NCBI GenBank assembly: GCA_018052705.1
Contig: JAGPMW010000005.1
Location: forward strand, 1 to 64,000
DNA length: 64,000 nucleotides
DNA from: Selenomonas sp.
GTDB lineage: Bacteria > Bacillota > Negativicutes > Selenomonadales > Selenomonadaceae
Direction: 5' to 3'
In this document: piece after piece, positions 4,153-61,070 of the stretch
Layout of the letters: each line of letters starts with the position of its first letter
Numbering within the stretch: the stretch's first letter is position 1
Program-made: the position numbers and the translations under genes
The notes under the pieces: model-generated
The model's database searches: none
Seen by the model: only the letters and a program-made list of their open reading frames with translations
Told to the model about the DNA's origin: nothing

Positions 4153-4215
4153 CAGTGAACAACTCCTCATTCATAATTGATAGTTATGCCTCATTATAAC
4201 ACAAATATGCACACA

Positions 4216-4259: not shown

Positions 4260-4333
<74 letters not shown>

Positions 4334-4343
4334 AAAATAAAAA

Positions 4344-4418
4344 TGGAGCGGAAAACGAGGCTCGAACTCGCGACCCCCACCTTGGCAAGGTGGTGCTCTA
4401 CCACTGAGCTATTTCCGC
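4344..4418 (-). tRNA. tRNA-Gly (GCC), second copy
   Basis: The acceptor GCGGAAA pairs with TTTCCGC, CCA is encoded and the anticodon loop carries GCC (CTTGCCAAG). The sequence is identical to the copy at 4515-4589, pointing to recent duplication or conversion of a Gly-Cys pair. Confidence 0.95.
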
Positions 4419-4432
4419 GTAAGATATAAAAT

Positions 4433-4507
<75 letters not shown>

Positions 4508-4514
4508 GAAAATA

Positions 4515-4589
4515 TGGAGCGGAAAACGAGGCTCGAACTCGCGACCCCCACCTTGGCAAGGTGGTGCTCTACCACTGAGCTATTTCCGC
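4515..4589 (-). tRNA. tRNA-Gly (GCC), first copy
   Basis: Same cloverleaf as 4344-4418, with anticodon GCC and encoded CCA. It is separated from tRNA-Asp by 5 bases. Confidence 0.95.
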
Positions 4590-4594
4590 ATAAA

Positions 4595-4671
4595 TGGCGA
4601 CCCGAAAGGGACTTGAACCCTTGACCTCCGCCGTGACAGGGCGGCATTCTAACCAACTAAACTACCGGGCC
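4595..4671 (-). tRNA. tRNA-Asp (GTC)
   Basis: A 77-nt cloverleaf. The acceptor GGCCCGG pairs with TCGGGTC (two G-U pairs), the discriminator is G and CCA is encoded. The anticodon loop CTGTCAC carries GTC. It is the first gene of the five-tRNA operon. Confidence 0.95.
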
Positions 4672-5424: not shown

Positions 5425-5778
5425 TCAGAGGTCCTCATGTACCTCTGTAAAATAAATCACGGTAACCGTGTCTTCCATCAGTATCCGGCGCTGATAGATA
5501 TTTTCAAAATCCTTTACCAGCTCTTCCTTTGAATTGATCTCAGGGTTCTGATGATCCAGATCATGTAAAGTCAACGTCCCCATCGTCTTGACCATAACTT
5601 TGTCCAAATAGGCCGGATAAAGTTTATGCTTTGGCTCCCCCTTCTTGCCCGCTGTCATCCATACGATCGAGCCTTCTGGATAAAGCTTGCTCACATCTCC
5701 AATGCGAACAGTACAATTCTTTGTGCGCTCCATCAGCATTTTTTTGTGCTTAGCTGCCTGAAAGTTCAATGCCATCAT
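5425..5778 (-). CDS. Small basic protein, possibly ASCH/PUA-like RNA-binding
   Basis: A 117-residue soluble protein. It opens with MALNFQ and a KHKKMLMERTKNCTVRIGD segment, followed by a beta-rich middle (SIVWMTAGKKG, VMVKTMGTLTL) and an acidic end. The pattern of a request to raise, hold or move followed by VRIGD and a later KVMVKT strand reminds me of ASCH/PUA-like domains, but this is by eye only. The start at 5778 follows GGAGAT with 8-nt spacing. It has no close co-transcribed neighbour and ends in its own terminator. An extended -10 (TGCTATAAT) lies near 5855-5863 upstream. Confidence 0.6.
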   Translation of the reverse strand: MMALNFQAAKHKKMLMERTKNCTVRIGDVSKLYPEGSIVWMTAGKKGEPKHKLYPAYLDKVMVKTMGTLTLHDLDHQNPEINSKEELVKDFENIYQRRILMEDTVTVIYFTEVHEDL

Positions 5779-5863
5779 AATAAAGCATCTCCAATCTGTT
5801 GTTTTTATCCATATTAGATTGCATACCATGTTAATACTGTTATATATTCGTTTTATTATAGCA

Positions 5864-6108
5864 TATTTCCTGCCATCTGCGAAACTTTATTTGTAACGCT
5901 ATAAAGATCATTCGTATATTTTACGCGGGCTTGCGAACTATTTTATGTGCAGTGTGTATGCAGCAGACAAAGTTTGTTTCATTCTATTAATAATTGAATA
6001 GGTCTATGCAAAAAGACAGTTTCGACATCTGGGTTTCAGAATTACTCTGATCCCATGTATCTTAGTACGAATATGGTTTTTTGCTTACTTTTTCTATGCT
6101 TTTCATGC
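5864..6108. other. Intergenic stretch, nothing assigned
   Basis: Between the 117-residue protein gene and the first small-RNA unit I see no reading frame with a ribosome site, no strong hairpin and no repeat of the downstream units. A few AT-rich words resemble promoter elements, but none is paired convincingly. Confidence 0.5.
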
Positions 6109-6117
6109 CCTATATGC

Positions 6118-6195
6118 TATAATACCGGTATAGGTCTTTTGTCATCCAACAAAACCTTAAAGACGTCATCTTACTTATGACGTCTTTTTCTTTTC
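6118..6195 (+). ncRNA. Candidate small RNA A with own promoter and terminator
   Basis: An extended -10 (TGCTATAAT, with TATAAT at 6118-6123) would start a transcript near 6130. It would end at an intrinsic terminator (GACGTCAT pairing with ATGACGTC, then TTTTTCTTTT) near 6195, giving about 65 nt. A second, imperfect stem can form between AGG-TTTTG and CAAAA-CCT in the first half. There is no start codon with a ribosome site inside. The -35 is poor in this copy. Confidence 0.6.
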
Positions 6196-6283
6196 CCTGA
6201 TATATTCATTCATCGCCCCTATACTTACAAGGATAAAGCTAGAGGCAAGCACTGACTCCCGGCACGTTGCTGTTCAAAGATAG

Positions 6284-6385
6284 TTGCCCGATATTTCCCT
6301 ATATGCTATAATACCAGTATAGGTCTTTTGTCATCCAACAAAGCCTAAAAGACGTCATCTTGCTTATGGCGTCTTTTTCTTTTTC
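6284..6385 (+). ncRNA. Candidate small RNA B, tandem paralogue of A
   Basis: TTGCCC at 6284-6289, 17-nt spacer, TATAAT at 6307-6312 with extended TG. The transcript would be about 6319-6385. The terminator stem is kept: the only arm change, A to G (ATGGCGTC), gives a G-U pair. The loop changes TTACTT to TTGCTT and the upstream stem changes AAAACC to AAAGCC. Changes falling in loops or as wobble pairs support a structured RNA. Confidence 0.62.
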
Positions 6386-6584
6386 TGATGCATCCCGCTT
6401 TATTCCTTCCTATAATTACACGGATAGAACTGCGATAGGAACGAGTGTTGCTTTGCGACCATTGATAAAGTAGCTCTCTATTGGACTTAAAAGGCTTTAA
6501 ACATATTCTTTCTTGCTCATTTATGATAAAATAATATTTGTTCGAGTATCTATTTATTTACAACATAACGAGGAGGCAATCATT

Positions 6585-7295
6585 ATGCTGAATTTCAAAC
6601 ATCTGGCCGTGGTCCTTGCGGCCATCATGACTCTTACTATGGGAACGGCCGCAGCAGCAGACACTCCTGCCCGCCCGCTGCTCTCGGTTGACGGCCAGGG
6701 AATAGCTACAGCTGCACCAGATCAGGCTACCGTGACAATTGGCGTATCCAGTCATGCCTCTGATGCAGGAAAAGCACAGAACGACAATGCCTGGAAATCT
6801 GATCAGATTAATCAGGCAATCAAAGCACTCGGAATCGATAGCAAAGATATACAGACGAATAACTACTCATTCCAGCCTACCTACCAGACGGATGCCAAAC
6901 ATAGCAATGAAATTAACGGCTATACGGTAGACAATTCCATTGTTGTAATTGTCCGCAATATCAAGCAGACAGGCAAAGTCATTGATGCTGCGCTCCGGTC
7001 CGGAGCCAACGAGATCCACTCTCTAGAGTTTTCGGCAAGCGATACGCGTTCAGTCAGGAAAGAGGCTCTCACGAATGCGGTACAAGATGCCCGTGACAAA
7101 GCGGATATCCTTGCCAAAGGGCTGGGAAAACGCATTACTGGGATCCAGAATGTATCCGAAAGCACAGGTTATATGGAATCCCGCCGGTTTAGCAACACCA
7201 TGCTGATGGCCGCAAAAGCTGTTGATACGACTGTTGAACCTGGCAGTCTGTCGCTCACTGCACGTGTCCATATCGACTTTATCCTTGGAGAATAA
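6585..7295 (+). CDS. SIMPL-domain (DUF541) secreted protein
   Basis: A 236-residue protein with a clear signal peptide (hydrophobic residues 7-25, cleavage near AAAADTP). A SIMPL domain follows, beginning LLSVDGQGIATAAPDQATVTIGV and continuing to the terminal ARVHIDFIL strand. Family members such as E. coli YggE are periplasmic and linked to stress tolerance; the molecular activity is not settled. GAGGAGG lies 8 bases before the ATG at 6585; the reading frame extends upstream but without a ribosome site. It is followed 25 bases later by an acyltransferase gene and is probably co-transcribed with it. Confidence 0.85.
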   Translation: MLNFKHLAVVLAAIMTLTMGTAAAADTPARPLLSVDGQGIATAAPDQATVTIGVSSHASDAGKAQNDNAWKSDQINQAIKALGIDSKDIQTNNYSFQPTYQTDAKHSNEINGYTVDNSIVVIVRNIKQTGKVIDAALRSGANEIHSLEFSASDTRSVRKEALTNAVQDARDKADILAKGLGKRITGIQNVSESTGYMESRRFSNTMLMAAKAVDTTVEPGSLSLTARVHIDFILGE

Positions 7296-13850: not shown

Positions 13851-15041
13851 TCAGAGGCCTGCTTCCTGCTTCAGAATGGCGGCCTTATCGGTGTGTTCCC
13901 ACGGCAGATCGACATCCGTACGGCCGAAGTGCCCATAAGCAGCCGTCTGTTTATAAATTGGACGACGCAAATCCAGCATCTTGATGATTCCGGCTGGGCG
14001 CAGATCGAAATGTTTGCTTACCAGTGCTTCAATCGTTTCTTCATCTACTTTATTCGTCCCGAAGGTATCTACCATAACGGATACTGGATACGCTACACCA
14101 ATCGCATAAGCAAGCTGGATTTCGCACCGTTCAGCCAGGCCAGCAGCCACAATATTCTTGGCTACATAACGAGCGGCATAAGCTGCACTGCGATCTACTT
14201 TCGTGGGGTCCTTGCCGGAGAAAGCGCCGCCGCCATGACGAGCCCAGCCGCCATAAGTATCTACGATGATCTTGCGGCCAGTAAGACCGGAATCACCCTG
14301 CGGACCGCCAATGACGAACTTGCCCGTCGGGTTGATAAAGATCTTCGTATCCTTAAGCATGAGATCTGCCGGAACAACAGCCTTGATGACATGCTCAATG
14401 AGATCCTTGCGAATCTGCTCCAGCGTCACATCGGCATCATGCTGGGTCGAGATAACGATCGTATCGACTGCTACCGGTTTGCCATCCTCATAGACGATAG
14501 TAACCTGCGTCTTGCCATCCGGACGGAGATACGGCAGTGTACCATTCTTGCGAACTTCCGTCAGGCGACGTGCCAGGCGATGTGCCAGTGCAATCGGTAA
14601 CGGCATGAATTCCGGCGTCTCATTTGTGGCGTACCCAAACATCATCCCCTGATCGCCTGCACCGACGGCTTCCGCCTCATCCATCTTACCTTCACGGGAC
14701 TCCAGTGCCTGATTTACCCCCTGGGCAATATCTGGAGACTGCTCGTCCAACGAGACCAGAATGCCGCAAGTTGCAGCATCAAAGCCATACTTTGCACGCG
14801 TATAGCCGATTTCGCGAACCGTATTGCGAATAATCTTCGGGATATCCACATAGCAGCTCGTAGAAATCTCGCCGACAACATGTACCTGACCGGTCGTGAC
14901 CAGGGTCTCGCAAGCCACACGGCCTTGCGGGTCCTGGGCGATGATTGCATCCAGGATGCTGTCTGAAATCTGATCTGCCATCTTATCCGGATGACCTTCT
15001 GTCACCGATTCCGATGTAAACAGCATACGTTTTTTACTCAT
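13851..15041 (-). CDS. metK: S-adenosylmethionine synthetase
   Basis: 396 residues, full length. It makes SAM from methionine and ATP in the cytoplasm. Motifs: [20 protein letters not shown] (ATP/methionine site), [12 protein letters not shown], and GGGAFSGKD with the phosphate-binding Lys. ATG at 15041 with AAGGAGGTAGGATC directly before it; longer in-frame extensions run into the riboswitch leader. The SAM-I riboswitch upstream implies repression by its product. Confidence 0.98.
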
Positions 15042-15112
15042 GATCCTACCTCCTTGATAGAAAACAATAGTTACGCTGAATCCTCTCAAATTCCGTTCAA
15101 GTTGAAGTAAAA

Positions 15113-15255
15113 AAAGCTCTCATTAATTAATGAGAGCTTCTAAATTCTTACTCTCATCTTCTAGGCTTTACCTAAAGGAATTGGCACCGTTCATATAATA
15201 TGATGGTTGCCGCGGTTTCACAGGGCCATTCCCTCCACCGCTCTAGATGAGTTCA
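15113..15255 (-). promoter_or_regulatory. SAM-I (S-box) riboswitch with terminator, controls metK
   Basis: On the minus strand the order is standard. P1 5' arm is CTCATCT (about 15253-15246), then GGTGGAGGGAATGGCCCTGT, GAAACC-CGGCAACC, GGTGCCAATTCC, and the P1 3' arm AGATGAGAG (15160-15150). The expression platform is a strong terminator, AAGCTCTCATT pairing with AATGAGAGCTT plus a T7 run (15113-15143). SAM binding stabilises P1 and lets the terminator form. Confidence 0.95.
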
Positions 15256-37008: not shown

Positions 37009-37263
37009 TCAATTCTCTTTTTCTTCACGTTTATCCGGGCCAAAGATACCACCGACTTCACGAGCCGGAGTAATGGTAGATATCGCATGCTTATAAACCA
37101 TCTGTTGTTTTCCCTGGACCTCCAGCACCACCGTGAAATTATCAAAGCCTCTGACGCTTCCCTTAATCTGGAAGCCATTCATCAGATGAATCGTAACCGC
37201 AACATTTTCCTTGCGGACCTGGTTCAGGAAACTATCCTGCAGATTGATTATTTTTGCCGGCAT
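37009..37263 (-). CDS. hfq: RNA chaperone Hfq
   Basis: 84 residues. Sm1 motif [48 protein letters not shown] and Sm2 motif [12 protein letters not shown] are intact; the tail is short and charged. It forms a hexamer that binds poly-U ends of small RNAs. The ATG at 37263 follows GGAGGG. It lies downstream of miaA, as in many bacteria. The paired candidate small RNAs at 6.1-6.4 kb would be natural clients (inference). Confidence 0.97.
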
Positions 37264-38930: not shown

Positions 38931-39071
38931 AGCTTTCACGCTCCTTCTTGGTTGCCCCTTCTTTTTTTACGTGCTATGCTATAAGCACTATAAATATTAT
39001 ATCACAATTGTAGGATTCATTGTCACACCCTACATATTTTTCATGGCTATCTAACCGGAATCGAGGTCTCT

Positions 39072-61011: not shown

Positions 61012-61070
61012 ACTATGGATTATACCATATATCGCCTGCATGTTTCCACTATTATTTCTGAGGAGTTCTC

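Follow-up and report, generated by a model that had tools for sequence, protein, structure and literature searches.

Within the window, i.e., the whole stretch of 64,000 nucleotides that was analysed, two direct copies of an 87-bp block were found to reside between a minus-strand gene (5425-5829), the 134-aa protein of which has no Pfam match, and the plus-strand SIMPL/DUF541 gene (6585-7295). Ungapped comparison identified 82 of the 87 positions as identical (94%), with zero indels and a start-to-start distance of 189 bp, and the tandem copies noticed in the preliminary description of this DNA are hence real. For the flanks of the blocks, the same comparison yielded random-looking values, namely 24/88 identical positions upstream and 30/100 downstream. 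As read from the sequence, each block comprises a perfect extended -10 element (TATGCTATAAT), a putative two-hairpin RNA of ~65 nt and an intrinsic terminator. The features considered here are the following:

5897..6498 (edges to a few bases): segment of ~600 bp, missing from syntenic relatives, as delimited by alignment with the relative G020
6108-6194: block copy 1, 87 bp
6113..6123, plus strand: extended -10 of candidate sRNA copy 1, exact TRTGNTATAAT
6130..6194, plus strand: candidate sRNA copy 1, ~65 nt, predicted to fold into hairpin 1 with loop CAUCCA, then the terminator
6159..6187, plus strand: putative intrinsic terminator of copy 1 with T-rich tail (terminator-like site call)
6195..6296: spacer 1, co-duplicated and decayed, best-kept block at about 6218-6235
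6297-6383: block copy 2, 87 bp
6302..6312, plus strand: extended -10 of candidate sRNA copy 2, with a -35-like TTGCCC at 17 nt
6319..6383, plus strand: candidate sRNA copy 2, ~65 nt (from its fold)
6347..6377, plus strand: putative intrinsic terminator of copy 2 with T-rich tail (terminator-like site call)
6384..~6483: spacer 2, a diverged copy of spacer 1, its far half alone not significant

Predicted promoters, terminators and folds of the twin blocks

The extended TATAAT previously reported for both units proved to be a perfect TRTGNTATAAT, of which the window holds six on both strands together as compared to 0.27 expected from shuffles; the two within the twin blocks are the only ones on the plus strand, the other four being located on the minus strand. 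Minus-strand sites include 4193-4203, just past a cluster of five tRNAs (4263-4671), 38996-39006 and 61019-61029. An extended -10 with a terminator at most 110 nt behind it occurs twice in the 64 kb, both times here, whereas 100 windows generated by a Markov model contained no such combination. When the intergenic region alone was simulated by a Markov model 2000 times, one of the sequences possessed a single combination and none possessed two. The starts of the candidate sRNAs were placed about seven bases downstream of the -10 element. By eye, the -35 of copy 1 is poor, so that its promoter activity would depend on the extended -10. A separate promoter and terminator can be assigned to each copy, as is the case for tandem sibling sRNAs, and two related candidate sRNA genes are adjacent to each other in one intergenic region, both assignments coming from the sequence.

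Likewise, the units of ~65 nt with terminators were recovered, since both candidate RNAs were predicted to fold strongly into two hairpins (copy 1, -17.4 kcal/mol, z -5.57; copy 2, -18.9 kcal/mol, z -4.97; 0/200 shuffles as good in either case), the second hairpin of each representing the intrinsic terminator at the terminator-like sites listed above. The 5' hairpin exposes the loop CAUCCA, which lies inside GUCAUCCAAC and is the same in both copies; GUCAUCCAAC occurs four times genome-wide, two of these occurrences being those of the twin blocks. The five differences between the copies are located in the stretch that separates the -10 from the presumed start (6127), in stem 1 (6154, U-A to U-G), in the linker (6158), in the terminator loop (6173) and in the terminator arm (6180, U-A to U-G). 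The earlier statement that these differences keep pairing holds insofar as all 20 of 20 base pairs are retained across the copies, but this is weak evidence, as 12.8% of random mutants with four substitutions retain all pairs as well. With regard to coding potential, seven stop-to-stop frames of at least 36 aa overlap the ~600-bp segment and none of them matched Pfam or PHROG, and a TTG frame running through copy 1 is interrupted by a stop in copy 2.

Tandem duplication and the extra segment

The preliminary description assumed a duplication of 189 bp, which gapped comparison of the spacers showed to be right for the original unit. Here, 63 of 83 aligned bases are identical between spacers 1 and 2, with several indels, and under three scoring schemes 0 of 1000 shuffles were as good. 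The homology signal comes mostly from one collinear stretch of 18 bp, which is kept in nearly the same register and reaches a local score of 26, a value attained by 1/5000 shuffles, 8/5000 Markov sequences and 2/2188 real stretches of the window; the second half of the spacers alone is not significant. For the DNA upstream of copy 1, no relation to the spacer was found. The sequences hence show an old tandem duplication of ~189 bp, only 87 bp of which are well preserved.

Decay of the two parts was uneven: the block differs at 5/87 positions with no indels and the spacer at 20/83 aligned positions plus indels (Fisher p 0.0009; p = 0.0004 with the best spacer stretch omitted), a test which is conservative in that the gapped alignment flatters the spacer, but in which the block had been chosen for its likeness. 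That the block was kept while the co-duplicated spacer decayed is considered the best evidence for function, and the slower decay of the block suggests that the candidate sRNA genes are functional. Purifying selection would be the simplest cause of it, and gene conversion limited to the block could be another cause of its high identity.

Comparison within the genus (22 genomes including the own, 20 of which carry the SIMPL gene) revealed that the pair resides in DNA that relatives lack. In 8 of the 19 other SIMPL-bearing genomes, the start marker of the left neighbour is found at the expected place beside SIMPL, and in all eight of these the marker-to-SIMPL distance amounts to 207-249 bp as compared to 807 bp here. 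The GC content of the ~600-bp segment is 0.377 vs 0.490 for the window. In the adjoining orthologous region (5779-5896), 106 of 117 positions are identical to the nearest relative, G020, and spacers 1 and 2 diverge more from each other than the own genome does from G020 over this region. This would point, weakly, to a segment that arrived already duplicated, or to one that is old and was lost elsewhere; the inference of an arrival in the duplicated state is weak because the compared region contains a promoter. At both edges of the segment (about 5897 and 6498 in the G020 alignment) a GCTWTAAA-like sequence is present (GCTATAAA and GCTTTAAA), which is perhaps a target-site duplication or microhomology. 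Inside the segment, the plus strand of 5985-6108 would fold into a long hairpin with imperfect pairing (z -2.5). It opens with ATAGGTCT, eight bases which both candidate RNAs possess as well. A diverged third unit at this place was considered as possible but lacks statistical support, 78 of 500 shuffles being as good.

Search for relatives

Rfam 15 assigned the twin units to no family at its gathering score, the best sub-threshold match being Phe_leader (22.2 vs 55 bits), and over the whole window gathering and relaxed thresholds alike returned only tRNAs and a SAM riboswitch, both elsewhere. The latter (15151-15253, minus strand, 93 bits) lies ahead of a minus-strand frame (13851-15089), which by its sequence we take to encode a methionine adenosyltransferase.

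When the whole segment was compared as DNA with 189 genomes of the family (own included), no match covered a unit; matches of 24-37 nt were obtained in 8 other genomes (E 0.001-0.01), some of them on terminator arms. The covariance model (R1) matched in 33 other genomes of the same set at E values of up to 0.5, the order-level set consisting of the same 189 genomes. Examination of 18 of these loci (L053-L070) revealed none with an extended -10 TRTGNTATAAT and the CAUCCA loop, most of them being plain terminators at gene ends next to a few other hairpin-like stretches (such as L062 and L067). Two of the 18, L059 and L061, show partial likeness to hairpin 1 and were rejected as they are without the TRTGNTATAAT promoter. 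Among 380 genomes of the class, the model gave four matches outside the family, and the three of them examined are hairpins or terminators without promoter and loop. The covariance-model search called for in the preliminary description, here extended to the class, thus revealed no convincing relative among the matches examined in the family (189 genomes) and the class (380).

The exact 18-mer GGTCTTTTGTCATCCAAC was found in five stretches of public genome contigs and nine of public viral contigs, eight of the latter nine being one repeated sequence, and in 0 of the 14 stretches does it occur in a hairpin-terminator context. Plasmids yielded nine records with short matches only (E 0.3-1), i.e., nothing above chance, phages yielded no match to the twin units, and the own genome holds no further copy elsewhere. 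The pair is consequently regarded as an orphan and as lineage-specific, with no convincing relative in the other 188 family genomes or in the class matches examined, and it appears to be confined to a single strain or species, or else to a small clade. Conservation beyond the own genome, the lack of which the preliminary description had named as refuting its claim, is not supported in the genomes covered; the tandem sRNA pair as such is still the best reading and has been strengthened by the decay of the co-duplicated spacer.

Interpretation and possible targets

In all, the locus is likely to harbour two sibling sRNA genes which derive from the old ~189-bp tandem duplication and would act in trans via a loop seed. 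Three other readings were weighed against this one. According to the first, which is rather unlikely, the ~600-bp insertion was left behind by a mobile element or plasmid, and the units once served in copy control or as antisense RNAs, are now without a role and look alike through gene conversion or a fairly recent duplication. Such an origin would suit a segment that is lineage-specific and lower in GC than the window, and Rfam places ctRNA_p42d below threshold on copy 2, at chance level (15.8 bits, E 2.6); against it, plasmids and phages hold no relative above chance, no protein relic was found in the segment by Pfam or PHROG, no terminal inverted repeats were seen by eye, the genome contains no second locus, and block and spacer decayed unequally. 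Both units are oriented toward the SIMPL gene (6585), which would allow them to be cis-acting pairs of promoter and terminator, by which transcription running on to this gene is insulated or attenuated, instead of free sRNAs. This is quite improbable, given that SIMPL has a spacer of 207-249 bp without the segment in the eight syntenic relatives and that the 5' hairpin with its loop, needless for a terminator, was retained in both copies.

Type I toxin-antitoxin loci typically consist of tandem intergenic repeats with short RNAs, and the arrangement found here matches this, the RNA then being the antitoxin to a small toxin encoded opposite to it or within the spacer. A 9-codon frame, which starts at the loop complement, does lie opposite both copies, but it is very short and unlike between them, no hydrophobic frame is common to both copies, and a 41-aa frame (6055-6180) starts in DNA without a counterpart upstream of copy 2, which renders a toxin-antitoxin locus highly improbable.

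For the preferred reading, i.e., a pair of sibling sRNA genes, precedents are known. In a review, OmrA/OmrB (E. coli), PrrF1/PrrF2 (P. aeruginosa) and AbcR1/AbcR2 (S. meliloti) are described as tandem sibling sRNAs, several such siblings being redundant or not (PMC4211561). These systems likewise consist of two closely related sRNA genes in one intergenic region; unlike them, the twin pair is without an Rfam family, a known target or a homologue in the species searched. Its likeness to known tandem siblings is one of organisation and, as judged by Rfam, does not extend to the sequence. NgncR_162/163 of Neisseria gonorrhoeae are a sibling sRNA pair, too, which reportedly has known metabolic targets; by Rfam alone, no sequence relation to the twin pair was found. 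The csRNAs of Streptococcus are small multi-copy RNAs which are thought to bind mRNA start regions. They are likewise listed in the review (PMC4211561) and are small and multi-copy like the twin pair, but no relation to it by sequence or Rfam was found. A search of the literature for small RNAs in Selenomonas, or for sRNAs and Hfq in Negativicutes, revealed no paper on this subject among the titles listed, the one obtained for Negativicutes dealing with OLE RNA, and small RNAs of Selenomonas-like bacteria, which are Gram-negative Firmicutes, are apparently little studied. The twin units are real and non-random, are probably functional sRNA genes, and would be an orphan addition to the known tandem-sibling kind. 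A kept gene beside its decayed co-duplicated spacer provides an internal clock and with it a clean test of sRNA gain and retention.

As to their action, each copy would give rise to a transcript of its own, an RNA of ~65 nt which is driven by the extended -10 promoter of that copy and ends at its terminator. The 3' hairpin would combine the terminator with a U-rich tail suited to Hfq, for which a role is presumed here; both candidate terminators possess such a tail, and hfq is present in the genome, being encoded, as the preliminary description rightly had it, in the window itself (37018-37227, minus strand; Pfam Hfq E 5.7e-31). The 5' hairpin would display CAUCCA within GUCAUCCAAC as probable antisense seed, the complement of which, UGGAUG, could cover start codons, and the loop is assumed to pair in trans with mRNAs near the ribosome-binding site or start codon, most likely lowering translation. 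With two copies behind unlike upstream DNA, the pair may serve dosage or the integration of two inputs.

A more far-reaching version is put forward tentatively and is itself doubtful: an orphan sRNA family of one species or close lineage may have come on the ~600-bp segment, probably already duplicated, and been kept by selection as a twin regulator, its GUCAUCCAAC loop being directed at a start-codon motif and fabK being a possible target. When the 5' half of the RNA was scanned against 173 candidate starts in the window, the best duplex reached -23.7 kcal/mol, which is not beyond shuffled RNAs (best of 30, -26.0). In the own genome, the pattern GAGG-N(2-9)-TTGGATG occurs at six sites vs two for the reversed control, and one of the six is a convincing gene start, that of fabK, with GGAGG and TTGGATG. 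The first 80 aa of the latter match TIGR03151 at 9.6e-37, which lies below the cut-off of this model since no more than the fragment was compared. The match at the fabK start also coincides in part with the end of the frame before it, and its duplex energy of -13.3 is nothing unusual, so that fabK is named as a possible target in the sense of a lead only.
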